Assembly (NCBI GenBank): GCA_017404955.1
Contig: JAFRBH010000001.1
Location: 1-64,000, forward strand
Length of the DNA stretch: 64,000 nucleotides
DNA from: Candidatus Saccharimonadota bacterium
GTDB lineage: Bacteria; Patescibacteriota; Saccharimonadia; Saccharimonadales; Saccharimonadaceae
Direction of reading: 5' to 3'
Shown: positions 2,628-19,135 of the stretch, in pieces
Layout of the letters: each line of letters opens with the position of its first letter
Position numbering within the stretch: the first letter of the stretch is position 1
Notes under the pieces: model-generated
Database searches by the model: none
Told to the model about the DNA's origin: nothing
The model's input: the letters and a program-made list of their open reading frames with translations, nothing else
Program-made: the position numbers and the translations under genes

Positions 2628-3722
2628 ATGGGACATCAGACTTTTTCGGTAGATAGCTACCGGCAGGCTCGCCGTGATTACGGCGTGACTCAGAGCACCA
2701 ACGTGACGAGGCAAGCTGAAGAACGCGCCAGGAGAACTGGTCGACTCAGCGAGATCGTCGATCCGGCCATTGGCCCGGTTCGTTTTTCCAAAATCCGGCT
2801 GAACCCCCATCAGAAGAAGTGGATCGCTACTCTCGGTTGCCCGATGGACATCGAGGTCAGTTGCGACACCACCGGCTCTATGGGCGGCGAAGTCGACACG
2901 GAAATGGCGGTTCTGCCCGACCTCTATGAGGCCGTGGCGAAAGTTCTGCCGGGTTACGATCCGCAGCTTTGCCTCGGTATCTTCGGCGATTGTGGCGACG
3001 ATTTCGTCATGTGTCGTCCGCAGTTCGAGATGGAAGCACCCAAGATCGTGAACTATCTCAAGGAAATGGCGCCTCAGCGTGGTGGATGTGGCAATCACGG
3101 GGAAGATCCCCAGTACGCCATGTTCGCGCGCGCTTATCTGACCGACGCCTATACCAATCGTATCGGCATCAAAGGCTATCACTTTATCGTTACCGATGAA
3201 CCCTACCATAACCATCTGCGTGAGGAGGAGATCCAGCGTATCTTCGGCAGTGACATTCTCAAGAATGAGCTGAAGGGGATGCGGCGTGAGCTTCCGTCCG
3301 TGAAGGCTATGGTGGCCGAGTTGAAGAAAAAAACGCACCAGTTTATTCTGGTGATGCGCGACCATTCTTATCACGATACGCTCGAAATGTGGCGTGATCT
3401 CTGTGGCGAGAAGTCCGTTATCGTCATCAACTCCACTCAGCAGTTACCGGCAGTTATTTCTGCCATCATTGGGCTGACGGAAGGCACCATCGAAGTCGTG
3501 GGCTTGAAGGAGCATCTCGGCAAGTATGGTGACTCTGAGCTGATCGCTCAGCTTTCCAACATCGACATCGGCGCGCAGGCGAAGCTTCGTCATGCGTTGC
3601 CCCATCCGGTTCCCAAAGCCGGGGATATCTTCGCCAATAAGGGCGATACCTGGCCGATTCAGCCGGGCGAATCTCCCGAAGAAGAACCCGCGGAGACTCC
3701 GGATCACATCGAGTACCTGTAA
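2628..3722 (+). CDS. vWA-domain protein of the cargo operon, 364 aa
   Basis: A von Willebrand A domain covers roughly residues 72-290. The metal-site motif is D80-T-T82-G-S84 (MDIEVSCDTTGSMGGE), followed by the acidic GDCGDD (120-125), the GGCGNHGED loop (152-160) and VTDE near residue 190. vWA domains bind Mg2+ and usually mediate protein assembly. The first 60 residues are charged and the last 45 are proline/acidic (GESPEEEPAETP). No signal peptide is present, so it is cytoplasmic. AAGGAGG precedes ATG 2628. GC is clearly higher than in the chromosome. It is the best conserved-looking part of the operon and probably its scaffold or switch. Confidence 0.8.
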   Translation: MGHQTFSVDSYRQARRDYGVTQSTNVTRQAEERARRTGRLSEIVDPAIGPVRFSKIRLNPHQKKWIATLGCPMDIEVSCDTTGSMGGEVDTEMAVLPDLYEAVAKVLPGYDPQLCLGIFGDCGDDFVMCRPQFEMEAPKIVNYLKEMAPQRGGCGNHGEDPQYAMFARAYLTDAYTNRIGIKGYHFIVTDEPYHNHLREEEIQRIFGSDILKNELKGMRRELPSVKAMVAELKKKTHQFILVMRDHSYHDTLEMWRDLCGEKSVIVINSTQQLPAVISAIIGLTEGTIEVVGLKEHLGKYGDSELIAQLSNIDIGAQAKLRHALPHPVPKAGDIFANKGDTWPIQPGESPEEEPAETPDHIEYL

Positions 3723-3770
3723 TCAAGATCTGTTAACAATTTGGTTTTTACAGACTCTAGGAGGTGTGTT

Positions 3771-5090
3771 ATGCTTGAGCGAATTTACGTCGTTACTGAC
3801 CTCGGTCCGGGTGACGGAGGAAAGGGCGGCATAGTTCATGCGCTCTCGCGCAAAATTGACGCTTCGGTCGTCATCAAGCGCGGAGGCGCACAAGGCTCTC
3901 ATGGCGTACGCACCTCCAACGGAGAAAGCTTTAATTTCTCACAATGGGGTTGCGGAACGCTTGAGGGTGTACCAACTTTTCTTTCCGAGCAAATGGTAAT
4001 TTCGCCAGTTGGACTCGGCAACGAATCGGAAGCCTTAAAGCGGCTCGGAATCTATGACCCATTCACGCTTTTAAGTGTCGACCCGTCCTGTATTTGCGCT
4101 ACGCCTTTTCATCGGATTTCTTCTCAACTTGAGGAGCTTCTGCTTGGAGAAAACCCGCGTGGCACGATTGGAACTGGTGTTGGACAAGCCTATCGTATGT
4201 ATAATGCTTTAGGTGAAGAAGCAACGATTCGAGCCTCTGAGCTTCAGGACCGTGAGGTTGTCCGCAGGAAACTCCAAAGGCAGCTCGATTGCTACAGAGA
4301 AAGGTATGCCAGAATCTCCACAGACGATGGTTTACCTGGCGACGCTGAGTTAATCGCCGAAAACCTTAGCTTGCTTCATGATGACGGCTTCTTGCCTTAT
4401 ACTCTTGATCTTTTTGAGAACATAGGTAAGAAGCTCCGATTTATGAGTCTTAGCGAAGTGGTAAAAGGCGATGGCTCGGCTGTCGTCGAATGTTCACATG
4501 GAGTTTTGACTGACGCTGAAACTGGATTAAAACCCCACGTCAGCGCAATTAGAACTCTTCCGAAGTTTACTACGGAAATGTTGAGAAGCGCCGGGTATAA
4601 CGGTAAGATAATTAACTATGCCGTTCATCGCGCCTATGAAATCCGACACGGAGCCGGCCCCATGCCGACTTATGATCCGGAGTTCACGACGCAAATGCTT
4701 CCCGGTAGCCATAAAGATGAGAATCGCTGGCAAGGCATAGTCCGAGCCGGAGCACTTGATTTGAATCTTTTGCGCTATGCTCTCGACACGAGTAGCGAAA
4801 CGAAGTTCGACGGGCTTTGCCTTACTTGGTTTGACCAAGTCTTAGCTTCCGGGCGAATCTGGCCACTCTGCGTTAGTTATAAAAACGCGCCGACGGACGG
4901 TGAACCCTATGCTGAGTTCCTAAAAAAGGCTGAGCCTACTACAATTGAATATTCCATTAAGAAACCCATCTCAAAGCGAGAACTTTTCGAATTTGTCGGG
5001 AATACTCTCGATGAGTTTATAAACGTTCCGCTGGAACTACTCTCAATTGGGCCAACCGAGCTGGATAAAATCAGTTCGAATAAAATTTAA
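3771..5090 (+). CDS. Divergent adenylosuccinate-synthetase-like protein
   Basis: The 439-residue protein follows the PurA fold from end to end. GDGGKGG (14-20) replaces the usual GDEGKGK, so the catalytic Asp is kept but the following Glu and final Lys are lost. SHG at 43-45 retains the catalytic His. GTIGTGVGQAY (131-141) matches GTTGRGIGPAY. CLTWFD (350-355) replaces CLTKLD, keeping the Asp that reads guanine. PurA joins IMP and aspartate using GTP. This copy is surrounded by phage and conflict-type genes rather than purine genes, so another nucleotide substrate or a signalling role is possible. AGGAGG six bases before ATG 3771 fixes the start. Confidence 0.8.
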   Translation: MLERIYVVTDLGPGDGGKGGIVHALSRKIDASVVIKRGGAQGSHGVRTSNGESFNFSQWGCGTLEGVPTFLSEQMVISPVGLGNESEALKRLGIYDPFTLLSVDPSCICATPFHRISSQLEELLLGENPRGTIGTGVGQAYRMYNALGEEATIRASELQDREVVRRKLQRQLDCYRERYARISTDDGLPGDAELIAENLSLLHDDGFLPYTLDLFENIGKKLRFMSLSEVVKGDGSAVVECSHGVLTDAETGLKPHVSAIRTLPKFTTEMLRSAGYNGKIINYAVHRAYEIRHGAGPMPTYDPEFTTQMLPGSHKDENRWQGIVRAGALDLNLLRYALDTSSETKFDGLCLTWFDQVLASGRIWPLCVSYKNAPTDGEPYAEFLKKAEPTTIEYSIKKPISKRELFEFVGNTLDEFINVPLELLSIGPTELDKISSNKI

Positions 5091-5104
5091 AGGAGGATAT
5101 ACCC

Positions 5105-6298
5105 ATGAGTGAAGAGATTAAGAATGCTGTTGCTACTGCTGAGACTGAGGCCGCCAAGGCCCCTGTCGTCGCGAACGATGTTCGCACCAAGCTCGCCGAA
5201 TACGGCGCCGACGAGGCGACCATCGATAAGGTCGTTTCCGAACTCGGCGTCGAGGAACTCGACGACCTGGCTTCCCTCGAGGTGGCCGATCTGACCGGCG
5301 CTGGCATGAAGCTCGCGAAAGCGCGCAAGCTCGTCGCTGAGTTGAAGAATACCAGCAAGCCCGCCGCTCCGGCTGTTGCCGCCGCGGAAACGCGCGCCAT
5401 CCAGAGCCAGTTTGAGGCTCTGTTGCCCTCGATCCCGACCGACGAGTCCTGGCTGAACGCCCTGAAGACCGGTGGTATCCTGAAGGTGGACGAGTCGTCC
5501 TACATCGCCGCCATTCGTGCGGCTCTGGCCGATCGCGCTGGCCTCTACAACGTTCCCGATGCGCTCTCCAAGGCTATGGAGAAGTATGCCGACGAAACCG
5601 AGGAGCAGGTCGATCCGACTTTCTACGCTCTGCGTAAGTCTTTGACCCGTCGCGCCTACGGCGACATCTTCGCCGCTATCGACGGTCTGGACGGCACGTT
5701 CATCACGGACGCCCGCCGCAAGGAGTTCCTGAGCCGCATCCGTGATACGCTCTGGCCGGCTATCGCCGAAAGCTATCGTACGTTGGACGGCTGGTATCAG
5801 ACCTGGCGTGCAAGTTTCTCCGATCCCTCTATGCTGATCGCGGCCATCGGCGGCGGTTTCAGTGGCGGAGCTGCTGGTATGAGTATGATTACTCCGCCCG
5901 ACACCGCTCAGCTGCATGACGCCGGCGACACGCTGGTCGATTCCATCAACCGCGTTTTCCGCGGTACTGGTGTTCAGGTCGCGGCCGCTATGGCTTATGA
6001 CGCCAACACCATCCGCAATACGCTCGAGGATCCGCGTCTGCCGTCCATGGTCGGCGTGAAGAACCGCGAGATGATGCTCAAGAAGATCGGCGCCAGCGTT
6101 TCCAGCAACTACATCCGCCTGGAGCAGAATCTGGTCAAGTACGTCCTGGCTTTCGCCAAGCACGACACGGTTACTTCCGATGTGGAAGTCAACTACTTCG
6201 TGGCTCTGTGGCAGCTGGGAACCCAGATCAACTGGGCTGAGCTGGGCGGCGGCGACGCCACCGGCATGACTGGTCTGACCGGCAAGCGCGTTCTGTAA
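5105..6298 (+). CDS. GC-rich helical protein of unknown function, last gene of cargo operon
   Basis: The 397-residue protein starts behind AAAGGAGG and ends just before a strong terminator. Residues 25-80 (VRTKLAEYGADEATIDKVVSELGVEEL) look like a small helical SAM/helix-hairpin module, followed by an alanine-rich linker. A longer domain has a glycine-rich turn (AAIGGGFSGGAAGMSM, about residues 247-262) and helices to the C-terminus. One sampled 60-base line is 67% GC against 40% in a line from the 8.6-kb gene. No family is recognised. The even expression signals suggest it works in fixed ratio with the three genes before it. Confidence 0.75.
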   Translation: MSEEIKNAVATAETEAAKAPVVANDVRTKLAEYGADEATIDKVVSELGVEELDDLASLEVADLTGAGMKLAKARKLVAELKNTSKPAAPAVAAAETRAIQSQFEALLPSIPTDESWLNALKTGGILKVDESSYIAAIRAALADRAGLYNVPDALSKAMEKYADETEEQVDPTFYALRKSLTRRAYGDIFAAIDGLDGTFITDARRKEFLSRIRDTLWPAIAESYRTLDGWYQTWRASFSDPSMLIAAIGGGFSGGAAGMSMITPPDTAQLHDAGDTLVDSINRVFRGTGVQVAAAMAYDANTIRNTLEDPRLPSMVGVKNREMMLKKIGASVSSNYIRLEQNLVKYVLAFAKHDTVTSDVEVNYFVALWQLGTQINWAELGGGDATGMTGLTGKRVL

Positions 6299-6321
6299 GA
6301 AGCCAACGCACCTATAAAATT

Positions 6322-6346
6322 AGGCCCCCATTCTGGGGGCCTTTTT
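6322..6346 (+). terminator. Intrinsic terminator closing the cargo operon
   Basis: AGGCCCCCA (6322-6330) pairs with TGGGGGCCT (6334-6342) around a three-base loop and runs into five T residues. It lies between the two convergent genes and closes the four-gene operon. Confidence 0.9.
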
Positions 6347-6353
6347 CATGACC

Positions 6354-7538
6354 TTAAAGCCAAACATATTTCGCGTAGAGCATGGTCGCAATCTTGCGGT
6401 ACTCGTCACAGTAGAACGGACAATCGCCGTCCATTTCGGGAGGAATGCAGAACTCGTCTATGCCAGTAAATCTGGAGAATCCTTTGTGCAACAGTCTATA
6501 TTGGAGCAAGTCACTTTCCAAACGCTCAATTGCTTGGCGCCTGATTTCCGGTCGCGTAGCGTACATTACCGAGTCGGTATAAATGTCCGTTATGTGATCA
6601 GCAATATGCTCTAACTCGTCTGCTACAGATCCTCCGCCAAGCCATATCGTATTGAAGTAGACATGGGTGGCGTGGGGACTTCCAGGCTTAAAAGCATCAC
6701 TCATTTCGAGCTGTTCGAGGTTCCATACGTCGAGGTCGGAATTTGTGGTCCCGTATCCTTTGAGCTGAGAACCGCCTACGAGAACAATTTCTGACGGGTT
6801 TAGTCGTGTCGCAATTTCTTCAAGCTGGGCTTCAATTGTCGGTATATTATCCGAGAACGGCCCCTCAAGCCTAGCTGAGGGCGTCAGAAGCTCTGCCGGT
6901 TTATTGCGCTCATCAAGCCATTCCAATCGCTTTTTTGAGACATAGAGCGGTTCTGGTTTCTTTCTTTCGGGTAAATGAGCGGTCTTTGAGGTGAGCGCAT
7001 ATAGGTCTGCGCCACTGAGAATCTTATTCTTACGAATGTAATCCCATGTGTCCTTGAAGCTCTGAAGTAGAACTTCGTCGTCGCTGTTTTCCTTGAGAAT
7101 ACTCGAAACCTGCCAAGCGGTGATGTACCCGAACTTGAGGAGCCACGGCGTAAGATGGGCGCATTTTACAACACGCTCTAGCCCGCCACTTGGTCTTGCG
7201 TCAAGCTCAAAGCAATCGCCAGTGTGGAAATTCTCGCGCACATCTCTTATGTTCAACAACCTGTACCACGCATCGCAGTATGCTTTCTTAAACGTAGCCG
7301 GAGCGTCATCCAAAAACCGTAGTGGCAAGTATAGCAGAATCCTCTCGGAATCTCTATCCTGAAGCAGGTCTTCACAGGCGCTATAGAACCGTTCTCGTTC
7401 AAGTGGCATATCGCGAGCGACCTTAGGATTCGCTTCGAGGAAGCAGCAAATATGTTCAGCCGCTCTTTTTCGCGTTCCTATGCCGGAATCAGCCTTTTCT
7501 AACCTGTGTTCGATAGCAGGTTTTAATAGTTTAACCAT
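6354..7538 (-). CDS. Protein with a nucleotidyltransferase-fold core, 394 aa
   Basis: Residues 250-272 read EIVLVGGSQLKGYG...SDLDVW, the GGS-x10-DxD signature of polymerase-beta-type nucleotidyltransferases (GGS 255-257, Asp268/Asp270). The 230-residue N-terminal part is helical and unfamiliar. After the motif come an HATHVYFNTIW stretch and a cysteine-rich C-terminus (PPEMDGDCPFYCDEY). Enzymes of this fold move nucleotides onto RNA, proteins or small molecules, and many belong to toxin-antitoxin or defence systems. It faces the cargo operon and has its own promoter, so it may be an independent cargo gene. The substrate is unknown. Confidence 0.65.
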   Translation of the reverse strand: MVKLLKPAIEHRLEKADSGIGTRKRAAEHICCFLEANPKVARDMPLERERFYSACEDLLQDRDSERILLYLPLRFLDDAPATFKKAYCDAWYRLLNIRDVRENFHTGDCFELDARPSGGLERVVKCAHLTPWLLKFGYITAWQVSSILKENSDDEVLLQSFKDTWDYIRKNKILSGADLYALTSKTAHLPERKKPEPLYVSKKRLEWLDERNKPAELLTPSARLEGPFSDNIPTIEAQLEEIATRLNPSEIVLVGGSQLKGYGTTNSDLDVWNLEQLEMSDAFKPGSPHATHVYFNTIWLGGGSVADELEHIADHITDIYTDSVMYATRPEIRRQAIERLESDLLQYRLLHKGFSRFTGIDEFCIPPEMDGDCPFYCDEYRKIATMLYAKYVWL

Positions 7539-7560
7539 AGAATATCCCCCTTTCGGTCAT
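7531..7560 (-). CDS. Nine-residue leader peptide overlapping the nucleotidyltransferase start
   Basis: On the minus strand ATG at 7560 opens a frame of nine codons (MTERGIFYG) ending in TAA at 7533-7531. Its stop lies across the ATG of the downstream gene (7538). AAAGGAG precedes it, and it contains AGGGGG, which serves as the ribosome-binding site of the main gene. This layout fits translational coupling. A -10 box TATAAT (minus strand, 7583-7578) lies just upstream. Confidence 0.45.
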   Translation of the reverse strand: MTERGIFYG

Positions 7561-7577
7561 GTTAATGTACTCCTTTT

Positions 7578-7583
7578 ATTATA
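7578..7583 (-). promoter_or_regulatory. -10 box for the nucleotidyltransferase gene
   Basis: The minus strand reads TATGGTATAAT, an extended -10 element, followed by AAAGGAG and the leader peptide. No clear -35 hexamer was found. The transcript would start about ten bases upstream of the leader ATG. Confidence 0.6.
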
Positions 7584-7682
7584 CCATAAGTTTTAATAAT
7601 TGTCTATTAGTATGTATTTATTTTCATCTGTTATACACGTATTGGTTATTAGTTTCTTAAAACTTATGCTATAATATGAATT

Positions 7683-8622
7683 ATGAATTGGTTAATCTAT
7701 ACTGCGGCTTCGGTATTGTCAGACTCATCTCGTATTTATATTGATAACTATATCTCCGATTATTACTACAAAGGCAAAGGTGCGGCTTCGCAGAAGTATT
7801 TCTATGCCATCGCCTTTATCGTATTGGCGATTATATTATTCGTTGTTGGCGTAGCCAACTCCTCTCTCTCTCTCTCTCTCGGTTGCGCCTATCGGCGCTC
7901 TAGCGCTATTCTTCATTTCTGGCCTAACCACTAGTTTCGCTGGCATACCTTATTATAAGGTTTTAGAGCTGGATAATTCGACCAACCTAGGTATTTTTGT
8001 GCAACTCGCGCCGATTCTTTATCTTATACTCGGCTGGCTATTTTTGGGTGACAGTATTTCGCTCCCACAGCTAATTGCATTTTTTGTAATCTTGGCCGCG
8101 CCACTACTAATAATTTTTTCAGCTAATAGACGAAAGGGCAAACGCGTGGAGCTAAAAGCCGCCGCTTTTGCGCTTCTTTATGTCGTGATGGTAGTTTCGG
8201 CAAATTTAATATTTGTCAAGCAAAACACGGCGGAGATTGCTTTTATTATCGAACTGGCGTTTACTTTCTTAGGTAAGGGTGTCGGCAACGCAATCATCAT
8301 GGCCTGTATGCCAAAATGGCGGAAGCGTCACAAGGCAGTAGTCAAAAGTAGCCACGGAAAAGTCTATCGACCATTGGTCTGCACATTTGCCACGTGTATT
8401 ATTAAGGATTTTGCGCAGTATAGCGCTATGATTGCCGCACCATCGATTGCTCTCGCTTCCGTGGTCGCCGATTCTTCCAAGCCAGTCGTTATTTTTCTTA
8501 TGGGTCTTATTGTAACTGCCATCTGGCCCAAATTTGGACGCGAGGACCTCAGTCGTCGCTCCATTATAGTCCACTTTGTTGCCACCATTTTAATAGTAAT
8601 CGGCATAATATTATTGCAATAA
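7683..8622 (+). CDS. EamA/DMT-type membrane transporter, out of frame at a (TC)9 tract
   Basis: Two overlapping parts make one protein. Bases 7683-7880 encode the first helices (ending VGVANSS). The rest, in another frame, continues APIGALALFFISG...FAGIPYYKVLEL...LAPILYLILGWLFLG and runs to 8622. The order, spacing and LGWLFLGDSIS motif fit ten-helix drug/metabolite transporters. The break falls exactly in (TC)9 at 7863-7880. One more TC unit, or two fewer, restores a single frame of about 313 residues. A TATAAT box at 7670-7675 puts the transcript start one base before ATG 7683. Substrate unknown. A sequencing error is the alternative. Confidence 0.75.
7863..7880 (+). repeat. (TC)9 dinucleotide repeat inside the transporter gene
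   Basis: Eighteen bases of perfect TC repeat follow AACTCC. The repeat sits at codon 61 of the transporter and is the exact point where the reading frame changes. Such tracts change length by replication slippage. In this copy the gene is off. Confidence 0.95.
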
Positions 8623-8635
8623 AGAAAGGAGTAAA

Positions 8636-9817
8636 ATGAAAATCAATAGTATATCTGTAGGTGGGTGGTTCCAACGAACTACTTTGCAGTTATCGGAAAT
8701 TTATGACTTCCTGCGTGGCGAGGAAGTGCAAATTAAATTGCAACAGAAAAAAGTTGACGAGTTTCGTAAGAATTTGGAAATCGGCAACCTTGAATATGGT
8801 TCTTCCGGTGAGGAGTATTTGATCTTCTCTACGGCCGAGGGTATCAATGTCAAAATATTTGAGGATGGTCTTATCGTGCTAAATAATGTCACGGTTTCCG
8901 AAGAAACTTTATTCAGCGACATCGAGAAGGTCAAAGACTATTACGAGACGAGGCTTTCGCCGGCCTTTAATTATCTGTTTAGCCTCGGCGCTCCGGTGCC
9001 AAAAGAACTTGCTGGTATCAAAAATATCTATCCGTTCTTTGTTGTTTTGGAGAAAGCTACGCAGGAGGAGCTTCAAAGTTTGCTTGGTAAAACCGAGGGT
9101 CGCCAATACTACGAATTTAAGAATTCAAAATATGATGTCTTGCGTGGGAATAAGTATTATTTCATCAACAACAAAACCAAATCGAACGACGAGATTGAAC
9201 GCTATATTGAGGAGCAAATCTTTATTCGGGAGTTTAAAGGTCAGCTCCACCGCTACCTAAATATCCATCGTATTATTTGGGAGAAGATTGACGATGTAAA
9301 AGCTCATTCTAAAGTCAAAGGTTCGGAAATAGTGAAGTTCACTACGAAACTAGAGGGTTATGCTAAAACTATCAACTTGATCGACGGGCGTATTAACCAA
9401 ATGGGGACTTATCTCCCTACTCGTGAGAAAATTGCCAAGCAGGATAAGGATCTTTCTGAATTTCTGGAGATCTCGGGCTATCGCTATGAAACTCTGCGCG
9501 ACACTTTAGAGTATATTAAGTATCTGTGGGATATGACCGAAAATTACGTCAGGGACGCCCAAAAGCAGTTTGAGAACTTAAAGTCTGATGTTACGAGCAA
9601 ATCGGTCACTAGCTTGACGATCGTTACATCAATGTCTGCCGGTGCGGCTATTCTTAGCCTATTTACCGAGTCAGAACCCGAGTTCACTACTTTCGGTTTT
9701 ATCTACTTCTTTGTTTTAGCATTGATCGGATGGGGTGCGCAAAAGATTCTGTCTATTATCGGCAACCGCCAGAAGTATGATGTTACTGACGTAGAATATG
9801 AGAAGAACATAAAATAA
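8636..9817 (+). CDS. Membrane-anchored coiled-coil protein of unknown function, 393 aa
   Basis: The start follows AAAGAAAGGAG and lies 13 bases after the transporter stop, so the two are probably co-transcribed. About 320 residues of charged, largely helical sequence lead to two C-terminal membrane segments (LTIVTSMSAGAAILSLF and FGFIYFFVLALIGWGAQ, about 328-375) and a short charged tail. The layout (long soluble domain, paired C-terminal helices) recalls CorA-like or effector-type membrane proteins, but no diagnostic motif is present. Its pairing with the phase-variable transporter suggests a shared function. Confidence 0.65.
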   Translation: MKINSISVGGWFQRTTLQLSEIYDFLRGEEVQIKLQQKKVDEFRKNLEIGNLEYGSSGEEYLIFSTAEGINVKIFEDGLIVLNNVTVSEETLFSDIEKVKDYYETRLSPAFNYLFSLGAPVPKELAGIKNIYPFFVVLEKATQEELQSLLGKTEGRQYYEFKNSKYDVLRGNKYYFINNKTKSNDEIERYIEEQIFIREFKGQLHRYLNIHRIIWEKIDDVKAHSKVKGSEIVKFTTKLEGYAKTINLIDGRINQMGTYLPTREKIAKQDKDLSEFLEISGYRYETLRDTLEYIKYLWDMTENYVRDAQKQFENLKSDVTSKSVTSLTIVTSMSAGAAILSLFTESEPEFTTFGFIYFFVLALIGWGAQKILSIIGNRQKYDVTDVEYEKNIK

Positions 9818-9968
9818 GTCGCCAACCCTCTGGTCAGGGTAGCATATTTGCTAAAAATGTGTTATAATAACAGAGGAGAATATATCAATCATATTCTTCA
9901 TATTGATAGTAACCGAGCAATACTCCGTCCGGATCGACACTTATTCTGCGGTTCGAGTCGAAAAATCG

Positions 9969-9996
9969 TTGACTTTATAACCATATGAGGTATAAT
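9969..9996 (+). promoter_or_regulatory. Promoter of the integrase-module leader RNA
   Basis: TTGACT (9969-9974) is separated by 16 bases from a consensus TATAAT (9991-9996). Transcription should start near 10003, about 20 bases before the hairpin set. Confidence 0.85.
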
Positions 9997-10023
9997 AGGA
10001 TTAACGAAGAAATTGCGATTAGC

Positions 10024-10072
10024 GGCTCCGCGTAGGAGCCAAAAGCTCCTATGTAAAAAATAGGAGCTTTTT
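10024..10072 (+). promoter_or_regulatory. Attenuator-like set of mutually exclusive hairpins ending in a terminator
   Basis: Four segments can pair in two ways. Segment 1 GGCTCC (10024-10029) pairs with segment 2 GGAGCC (10035-10040), while segment 3 AAAAGCTCCTAT (10041-10052) pairs with segment 4 ATAGGAGCTTTT (10060-10071) to make an intrinsic terminator. Alternatively GGAGC (10035-10039) pairs with GCTCC (10045-10049) around a CAAAA loop, which would prevent the terminator. With the promoter just upstream this makes either a roughly 70-nt small RNA or a premature-termination switch for the integrase operon. Confidence 0.65.
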
Positions 10073-10150
10073 CAGGGTTCCAGTACTGGCCTCCCCGGGT
10101 GAGGTATAAGTACGCAATAATATCAATTTAACTCTCGTGGAGGTACGAGT

Positions 10151-10210
10151 ATGTGTATTTTTGCGAGCTTCTTCAGGAGCGGTATTTATGGAAATTCCAA
10201 GCATCAATGA
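10151..10210 (+). CDS. Possible 19-residue leader peptide overlapping the next gene
   Basis: ATG 10151 follows GGAGG by seven bases and opens a 19-codon frame (MCIFASFFRSGIYGNSKHQ) ending at TGA 10208-10210. It overlaps the start of the next gene at 10188 in another frame. The strong ribosome-binding site is the main support. It may couple or gate translation of the following gene. Confidence 0.4.
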   Translation: MCIFASFFRSGIYGNSKHQ

Positions 10211-10487
10211 CATTGTCAATGATCATTCTTCGAAGAAGAATTACAATGTCTATGACAATGTTAGCGATAGAGTGCGATCTGTCGACACCAAAGCCCAACA
10301 CCTAGCACGAAAAATTGGTAATGAGGGCAACGAGATAGCATACAAATTGTATTGTAAAGCATTCTATGTACTATCAGATGACGAAGTCTGGCGTCTTTAC
10401 GAGTTGGCCCAGAGAAAAGGGAGAAATCCAACGAAGTATTTATCTTGGTTACTTTCCAATGAAATAAGAAGAGCTAGCCGAGGTTAG
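10188..10487 (+). CDS. Small basic phage protein, 99 aa, upstream of integrase
   Basis: ATG 10188 is preferred over GTG 10137 in the same frame. GTG 10137 has no ribosome-binding site, while AGGAGCGGTATTT precedes 10188. Residues 40-95 are helical and basic (KLYCKAFYVLSDDEVWRLYELAQRKG...). It could be a DNA-binding or excision-type protein by position, but no helix-turn-helix is obvious. It lies 41 bases before the integrase on the same strand. Confidence 0.6.
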   Translation: MEIPSINDIVNDHSSKKNYNVYDNVSDRVRSVDTKAQHLARKIGNEGNEIAYKLYCKAFYVLSDDEVWRLYELAQRKGRNPTKYLSWLLSNEIRRASRG

Positions 10488-10528
10488 TTCCGAGTTAGAC
10501 TTTCTTTGGTTGGCAGAAAGGAAAGTTT

Positions 10529-11437
10529 ATGAAAACCACAAGTTTAACTCTCTCGGAAGCTTTTGAGCTTTATCGTAAGGACGTTATTGTCTATAAAAAT
10601 CAATCAGCCAAGACTGAAGAAATGAATCGGTGCGCAATGAAATCGATCGTCGATTTTCTTGGCGATATCCAAATAACGGAACTAGATTTTGATTCAGTCC
10701 GTAAATGGTCAGCTAATCTTAGGAAAACGCGAACTTCGAATACAGTTCGCGGTTATATCCTTAAGATTCGCGTCGTTTTAAAGCATCTTCGGGCGCTTGG
10801 CTACAAAGATGTCATGGATCCGGAGGCTATCGGTATTCCTAAACGCGACTCGCGTGTCGTCGATTATCTTGAAGTTGACGAAGTTGAAGCCATGCTTCAC
10901 GCAGTATTTCAAAGAGGAGCTGGTTACTCTAAATTTAAGCGTTATAGAAATCGAGCTATCATTGCCTTGATGTTTAGTGCCGGTCTTCGCAATGGCGAGC
11001 TATGCAGTATGGAACGCACCCAAATAAAAGACGGCGTAGATAGCTTTACTGTGATCGGAAAGGGTAATAAGCCTCGCGTTTGTTTTATCGATCCTGTCAC
11101 GCATAGGTATATTGATGAGTATCTTGCACTTCGCGATGATCCATATCCAGCGCTTTTCGTTTCGGAACAGCAAAAAGGCCGTGAGAAGATCAACCCAGGC
11201 GTAGTTCAGATGGTAGTTAAAAATGCGGCTATCAAAGCCGGCCTAGAGAAAAATATTCATCCGCACACGCTCCGTCATTCGTTCGCTACGGATCTTCTTC
11301 GCAATAATGCCAATATCGTGTATGTAAAGGAATTGCTCGGCCACGCGAATATTCAAGTTACGATGACTTATACCCATGTCGTGAACGAGGATCTACATGA
11401 GATCCATCGCCTGAAGCATACCGTCGTTCACGCTTAG
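10529..11437 (+). CDS. Tyrosine recombinase / phage integrase
   Basis: The 302-residue protein has an N-terminal SAM-like core-binding domain (about 5-95) and a C-terminal catalytic domain. The catalytic set is complete: Arg154 (AGLRNGEL), Lys181 or Lys178 (IGKGNKPR), His246-x-x-Arg249 (HTLRHSFAT), His272 (LLGHANIQVT) and the nucleophile Tyr281 (MTYTHV). It is flanked by the attR-like tRNA half and a terminator. Its role is insertion and excision of the element at tRNA-Thr. GAAAGGAAAG precedes ATG. It resembles XerC/D in motif spacing, but the position argues for an element integrase. Confidence 0.93.
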   Translation: MKTTSLTLSEAFELYRKDVIVYKNQSAKTEEMNRCAMKSIVDFLGDIQITELDFDSVRKWSANLRKTRTSNTVRGYILKIRVVLKHLRALGYKDVMDPEAIGIPKRDSRVVDYLEVDEVEAMLHAVFQRGAGYSKFKRYRNRAIIALMFSAGLRNGELCSMERTQIKDGVDSFTVIGKGNKPRVCFIDPVTHRYIDEYLALRDDPYPALFVSEQQKGREKINPGVVQMVVKNAAIKAGLEKNIHPHTLRHSFATDLLRNNANIVYVKELLGHANIQVTMTYTHVVNEDLHEIHRLKHTVVHA

Positions 11438-17809: not shown

Positions 17810-17839
17810 TTGACATACCCCCCCCCATGGTGTTATTAT
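17810..17839 (+). promoter_or_regulatory. Promoter with a C9 tract in the -35/-10 spacer
   Basis: TTGACA (17810-17815) and TATTAT (17834-17839) are 18 bases apart, and nine consecutive C residues (17818-17826) lie between them. Loss of one C would give the optimal 17-base spacer. It drives the surface-protein gene at 17867. Confidence 0.75.
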
Positions 17840-17866: not shown

Positions 17867-19135
17867 ATGAAAAAAGCTAAACTACTTATTGCAGCCATGT
17901 TCATGGCTGTCACGCTGGGTCTTCCAGCCAAAGCGGTGTTTGCCGCAGCAATCACCATTACCCAAGCAGATCTTGCTACTGCTTGCAGTGGAACGCCAAC
18001 AAAAGGCATTACCTGTAGCACCACAGACGAACGCTACACTCTCGCAGCAGGCGAATACGTTCTAGGTAGTGATTTGGATCTTGGAACCTATAATCTTGGT
18101 TTATCAGGGGCCGGAAACTACATCCTCAATCTCGGCAACCATGTTATTACTTCCGCTGTCAATACAGCAAAAAATTCAAGCACTATTACTGTTGTAAATA
18201 GTGGCAAAACCACTGCTATCAAAAATGGTAAAATCGCCAATACTGGAATGGGCGGAGGAACAGCTCTTTCTATTGGTGGCTCAATTGCCACAATTTCCGA
18301 TGTCACTTTGTCCTCCAATGCAGATACTGCAGAAATTAACAATTTCGGAACCACTGCAGCTAATGTCACTTTCAATAATGTTGTCTCCAATAAACATATT
18401 AACGTGATGGGTGATAGCACTCTTACCATTAACAGCGGCACCTATTCTGGTGATATGATGGGCGCAGTCAGTACTTCTTTAGCATTTGACCCTATCACTT
18501 TTGAATATAATGATGACGGTGGTCATCTTATTATTAATGGCGGCACTTTTGCCTCCGCAGCCAGTTCGGCAATTTATGCTAACGGCATTGGTAAAAAAGC
18601 CTCTGTAGAAATCAATGGTGGTTCTTTCACCTCCGAAGGTGATACCGGTATGGAAGTGCTTGGTGCTAAGTCTGTCAAAGTTACTGGCGGCACCTTTACA
18701 GGTAAAGAAGCTGGCCTTAGATTAGCAGAATATACCAGTGTAGTACTCTCTGGTGGTACCTACAAAGCTACTGGCACCGAAGTAGACAACGGGGCTATTA
18801 CCATGCTAGCCACCAACGAGAGTAAACTTTCCACCCTTCTAGCTGCCGGTTATAAATACACCGACGGGGCAGCTGCTATGGGCACCCTGTTCGGCGAACC
18901 TCTAGCCTATCTCACTAGCAAAAACGTTTCTGTCGTATCTACAAGCACCTCTACTAACGACGAAACCAATACTGAAGACACCACCTCCAGTAACACTATT
19001 GGCGCTCCAGACTCTGGTAGAAACACTAAAGAAACTTCTGCCACTACTAGCGCCTTAGTAAGCATATTAGCTTCTTCTGTACTTCTTGGCGGTATCTACG
19101 CTGGCAAAAAACACTTTGCTAAAAAGCAAGCTTAA
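17867..19135 (+). CDS. Secreted beta-helix-like surface protein with APDSG sorting signal
   Basis: The 422-residue protein has a signal peptide (MKKAKLLIAAMFMAVTLGLPAKAVFA). Repeated short beta-strand/GG turns follow (INGGTFAS, INGGSFTS, VTGGTFTG, LSGGTYKA), typical of right-handed beta-helix domains, then a Thr/Ser-rich linker. The end has APDSG (380-384), a hydrophobic stretch (SALVSILASSVLLGGIYA) and a lysine-rich tail, the layout of a sortase-anchored protein. GGGAG precedes ATG by six bases. Two sortase genes lie 2-3 kb downstream. Expression may vary through the C9 promoter tract. Likely an adhesin or host-contact protein; the ligand is unknown. Confidence 0.8.
   Translation: MKKAKLLIAAMFMAVTLGLPAKAVFAAAITITQADLATACSGTPTKGITCSTTDERYTLAAGEYVLGSDLDLGTYNLGLSGAGNYILNLGNHVITSAVNTAKNSSTITVVNSGKTTAIKNGKIANTGMGGGTALSIGGSIATISDVTLSSNADTAEINNFGTTAANVTFNNVVSNKHINVMGDSTLTINSGTYSGDMMGAVSTSLAFDPITFEYNDDGGHLIINGGTFASAASSAIYANGIGKKASVEINGGSFTSEGDTGMEVLGAKSVKVTGGTFTGKEAGLRLAEYTSVVLSGGTYKATGTEVDNGAITMLATNESKLSTLLAAGYKYTDGAAAMGTLFGEPLAYLTSKNVSVVSTSTSTNDETNTEDTTSSNTIGAPDSGRNTKETSATTSALVSILASSVLLGGIYAGKKHFAKKQA

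Follow-up and report, generated by a model that had tools for sequence, protein, structure and literature searches.

A TC dinucleotide tract as a probable slipped-strand phase-variation switch in a prophage-borne DMT (EamA) transporter gene of a Saccharibacterium

Why should a transporter gene be interrupted at a single point, and why should that point be a perfect run of TC units? The question arises at positions 7683 to 8622 of the window, by which we mean the whole stretch of 64,000 nucleotides that was analysed. On the forward strand, an ATG at 7683 opens a frame that encodes the N-terminal part of a drug/metabolite transporter (DMT); this frame is 83 aa long and ends out of frame past the tract, with its stop at 7934. 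The (TC)9 tract, the proposed slippage switch, occupies 7863 to 7880 on the same strand, is directly preceded by a single C at 7862 and falls in the loop between predicted transmembrane segments TM2 and TM3. The remainder of the transporter (246 aa; EamA, PF00892) lies open in the +1 frame from 7882 to 8622, also on the forward strand. The initial annotation had placed the tract exactly at the frameshift, as the only break in the gene, and had reckoned that adding one unit or removing two restores the frame. The arithmetic is correct, and the placement is borne out by the tract coordinates; the gene it interrupts is kept under protein-level selection, as described below.

A second possibility, that the downstream half is a separate gene, was considered and rejected. 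The +1 frame has a stop codon just 5' of the tract, and no ATG, GTG or TTG occurs in that frame between the tract and the GTG at 7999; the downstream half is therefore without a proper start of its own. When the window was simulated 100 times with a first-order Markov model, the longest dinucleotide run ranged from 3 to 6 units and was at most 5 units in 99 of the 100, against the 9 observed. The tract is an uninterrupted tandem repeat of a short unit, exceeds what chance would give, sits inside a gene and, through its unit count, determines whether the full frame can be followed. A consensus promoter scan returned no forward-strand promoter for the transporter gene. By eye only, a TATAAT with an upstream TG (an extended -10 element; 7670 to 7675, forward strand) can be seen seven bases 5' of the ATG, a distance that suggests a leaderless transcript.

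The assignment of the product to the DMT proteins, which are commonly exporters of metabolites or drugs, was assessed by profile comparison. The downstream 246 aa matched EamA with an E value of 1.8e-6 and 28.8 bits, above the Pfam cut-off of 28.2. Joining the halves brought no gain in score (28.7 against 28.8 bits for the downstream half), and the read-through match spans the junction. The gene thus shares an above-cut-off match with the EamA family and differs from it in having its coding frame split by a simple sequence repeat (SSR). The earlier description of the two frames as together giving a DMT-type transporter is upheld by these matches. The downstream half had no match among PHROGs or NCBIfam, and a search of genome contigs returned no relatives of it. 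Assignment to the ten-TM type is a prediction from hydropathy only.

The surroundings of the gene are those of a prophage. A tyrosine-type integrase gene at 10529 to 11437 (forward strand; PF00589, E 3.1e-32; phrog_1, E 1.9e-50) marks the prophage edge, 1.9 kb from the transporter gene, and the C-terminal part of a phage endolysin, its LysM end, is encoded at the start of the contig (127 to 528, forward strand; phrog_7698, E 4.6e-22; phrog_291, E 1.5e-17). Furthermore, a record in IMG/VR (3300028454_000294) aligns with positions 2882 to 10974 of the window at 91% over 8.1 kb, and its adjoining part contains genes for an endolysin (phrog_291, E 6.1e-77) and for a protein with matches to DNA methyltransferase and ParB-like families. 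Because an integrase is nearby and the region recurs in a record with an endolysin, the status of prophage cargo, which had been proposed from the sequence at the outset, is well supported. From its annotation as a transporter, the product would appear to be dispensable for the phage cycle. The adjacent gene (8636 to 9817, forward strand) encodes a protein of 393 aa whose family is unassigned. Its homologues occur in 20 of the 174 genomes of the genus; in three of these besides the window's own, a DMT homologue is no more than about 2 kb away, in differing orientations, so the two genes may travel together and form no fixed operon. Elsewhere in the prophage, positions 3774 to 5087 hold an adenylosuccinate-synthetase-like gene whose best PHROG is 1211 (2-aminooxy adenylosuccinate synthetase, E 4.1e-38), for which a link to modified phage DNA bases is possible.

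Comparison with homologues lacking the repeat, which the initial annotation had called for, was carried out across the genus. Homologues at E 1e-10 or better were present in 92 of the 174 genomes (the window's own included). Fifty-six homologue loci were given to a script, of which 55 matched the downstream half; in 35 of these 55 loci a single open reading frame matched both halves, the position of the tract usually being taken by a 1-residue linker. None of the 56 carried a dinucleotide tract of at least 5 units, which makes the TC switch lineage-specific. A homologue in genome G136 also looked frameshifted and was rejected as a further case, since its locus ends near the match and the frame is apparently cut by the contig end. 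The homologue in G230 is a frame of 142 aa. A different repeat was found in G020, a genome of another genus of the family: in its DMT homologue the reading frame shifts precisely at a G9 tract, so that the N-terminal half and the remainder are in different frames, and this break, too, falls in the TM2-TM3 loop. A wider search of the family recovered homologues at E 1e-20 or better in 142 of 394 genomes, and among 28 loci taken from that search a G/C tract of at least 7 was present in two (L222 and L223); the first is the same G020 gene, and in the second the tract lies about 1 kb outside the match. Given the TC tract here and the G9 tract in G020, the transporter family appears to have gained a repeat switch twice.

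The host genome comprises 718,159 bases in 13 contigs and is 99.6% complete. The identification of the host as a Saccharibacterium agrees with the window's Tgt (queuine transferase), for which the best 20 of 80 matches were all to Candidatus Saccharibacteria, at 75 to 82% identity, mostly metagenome-assembled genomes (MAGs) and many from ruminant gut. A genome-wide search revealed seven long tracts in total, two GA/TC tracts of at least 7 units and five G/C tracts of at least 9, and no AC or AT tracts. The six besides the transporter's all lie at genes for surface or secreted proteins or at their promoters, a class assigned by judging N-termini by eye alone. A G10 tract on contig C5 sits, in frame, inside a signal-peptide-like N-terminus. 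Loci L210 (G10; contig C6, 83 to 92) and L211 (G9; contig C12, 438 to 446) share the same 5' coding end behind different upstream DNA, and the former is out of frame while the latter is in frame. An (AG)11 tract on contig C10 (8764 to 8785) lies at the 5' end of a gene for another surface-like protein with a similar N-terminus, just 3' of an AGGAGG-like site; no ATG, GTG or TTG precedes it, and the gene is cut where the contig ends, 160 bases further on. The last two tracts lie upstream of coding sequence: a G12 tract on contig C4 follows a TTGACA upstream of a gene for a secreted-looking protein, and a run of nine C in the window itself (17818 to 17826) lies in the 18-base spacer between a TTGACA (17810) and a TATTAT, upstream of a gene for another secreted-looking protein (17867 to 19135; ATG at 17867). 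The nine-C spacer tract is a candidate for phase variation of the promoter type.

Similar tracts recur throughout the genus. TC tracts of at least 7 units were found in 18 of the 174 genomes, AC tracts in 2 and AT tracts in 39, and G runs of at least 10 in 72. Thirty-one distinct GA/TC tracts were inspected by eye, a set that leaves out the window's own and covers those of G270 in part: 13 lie at the 5' ends of surface-like genes, 4 in EcoRI-type methyltransferase genes (for example L117; PF13651, E 8.7e-125) and 2 in hsdS (for example L115; PF01420, E 9.4e-58), the remaining 12 being left unclassified. In hsdS, the GA tract lies between the specificity domains; the gene is in frame in L115 (genome G244) and out of frame in L112 (genome G116). 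The signal-peptide region carries a TC tract in eight surface-like paralogues (L099 to L106) of genome G204; contig ends truncate two of them, and of the others five are out of frame and a single one is in frame. At all four methyltransferase loci (L075, L078, L087 and L117), each of the three frames that follow the tract has its own C-terminal end, the three ends being homologous and contained within the tract and about 480 bases beyond it; the setting in G244 and G314 gives the first end, that in G294 the second and that in G208 the third. As judged from these reading frames, the GA tract would be a three-way selector of C-terminal modules rather than an ON/OFF switch. MutS (MutS_V, PF00488) was detected in none of 25 genomes, the window's included, whereas 11 of 14 control genomes were positive. 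Without mismatch repair, frequent slippage at dinucleotide repeats is expected.

The IMG/VR record (L042) provides a second copy of the transporter gene, and this copy also has nine TC units and is out of frame. Over 940 bases the two copies differ by 55 substitutions, with no indel and no other stop. By the Nei-Gojobori method, the upstream half has 8 synonymous and 1 non-synonymous changes (dN/dS 0.031) and the downstream half 40 and 6 (dN/dS 0.042), dS between the copies being about 0.25; read in the wrong frame, the downstream half gives a dN/dS of 3.8. Intact neighbours have values of 0.022 (the gene at 8636) and 0.016 (the gene at 5105). Both halves of the transporter are thus under strong purifying selection, like a working protein, despite the OFF state of the copy. 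The gene at 3774 has a dN/dS of 0.22, above those two neighbours, so constraint on the genes of the element is not uniformly strong. That no substitution separates the two copies within the tract has no statistical significance and is given no weight here. Searches of IMG/VR with the junction pattern, the downstream half, the 8636 gene and the 5105 gene returned this one record only, and a search for further copies of the locus among phage records gave no match. No in-frame copy bearing the TC tract was found in IMG/VR or in the 174 genus genomes. A single in-frame length, which the initial annotation had taken as the mark of an assembly error, was likewise not seen, the sole independent copy having the same out-of-frame length.

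These comparisons bear on three other explanations. The one that survives best, which we nonetheless regard as unlikely, is constitutive correction, whereby the ribosome shifts frame, or RNA polymerase slips, on the TC run so that some full-length protein results and nine units are the working form. The presence of exactly nine units in both copies at a dS of about 0.25, together with selection on both halves, is what such a gene would display; however, coincidence would often give two copies of equal length, elsewhere in the genus related tracts differ in length and state, and the G020 homologue has a different repeat. TC runs are not known to act as a frameshift signal. Decay of a dispensable prophage gene after a recent frameshift would accord with both known copies being out of frame, but is very improbable in light of a dN/dS of 0.03 to 0.04 across both halves and the lack of any further stop or indel. 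Although repeats are error-prone, a mistake of assembly or base calling in the repeat length is equally improbable, as the same length appears in two separate assemblies with 55 differences and 18 bases lie well within short reads. The shared nine units and the purifying selection together argue against decay and against random assembly error alike.

Selection, homologues and the other tracts instead support the ON/OFF reading first put forward for this locus: the (TC)9 tract is most probably a slipped-strand phase-variation switch within a prophage-borne DMT (EamA) transporter gene. Slippage during replication would change the number of TC units and so toggle the transporter. One length class in three would encode the complete transporter, of the ten-TM type, while the other classes would yield the 83-aa product or a comparable non-functional fragment that stops shortly after TM2. 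On this reading the assembled consensus is an OFF length, and we infer length variation within the population and full-length protein in ON cells. Most likely, the switch would be a form of bet-hedging in which some cells have a particular membrane exporter and others lack it, a change to the cell surface brought about via lysogeny.

Phase variation by SSRs is familiar from Neisseria and Haemophilus, in which short repeats lie inside the reading frame, the number of units governs production of the full protein, and many loci in one genome, mostly surface genes, are affected. The present tracts resemble those systems in that the repeat is inside the frame here and that one genome has multiple loci, mostly surface-related. 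They differ in that the host belongs to the CPR and has no detected MutS, and in that the proposed switch acts on a prophage-borne DMT transporter gene. A literature search covering Saccharibacteria, Patescibacteria, TM7 and CPR, with most subscription papers and preprints outside its scope, did not turn up a report of phase variation driven by repeats in Saccharibacteria. A close case is a hypervariable repeat gene of a Gracilibacterium, for which slipped-strand mispairing is discussed (PMC6851277). It likewise involves repeat variation in a CPR bacterium; there, however, 9-mer repeats in the gene of a surface protein encode an unchanging tripeptide, and the variation is not an ON/OFF switch of the frame.

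Taking the loci together, we lean towards a broader picture: a genome-wide, repeat-driven programme that would encompass surface proteins, promoters, hsdS, methyltransferase and prophage cargo, with DMT switches arising at least twice in the same loop from two repeat types and a three-way methyltransferase selector, in ruminant-gut episymbiotic Saccharibacteria whose genomes are very small and lack a detectable MutS. Episymbiotic Saccharibacteria require continued attachment to other bacteria, and variation of their surface is poorly understood. Existing rumen metagenomes make a direct test at the level of reads possible. If the repeats do switch in populations, each MAG consensus conceals a mixture of ON and OFF states among cells, and labelling the interrupted genes of such genomes as pseudogenes would be a mistake. 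The prophage, for its part, would be a putative supplier of a switchable membrane protein to its host.
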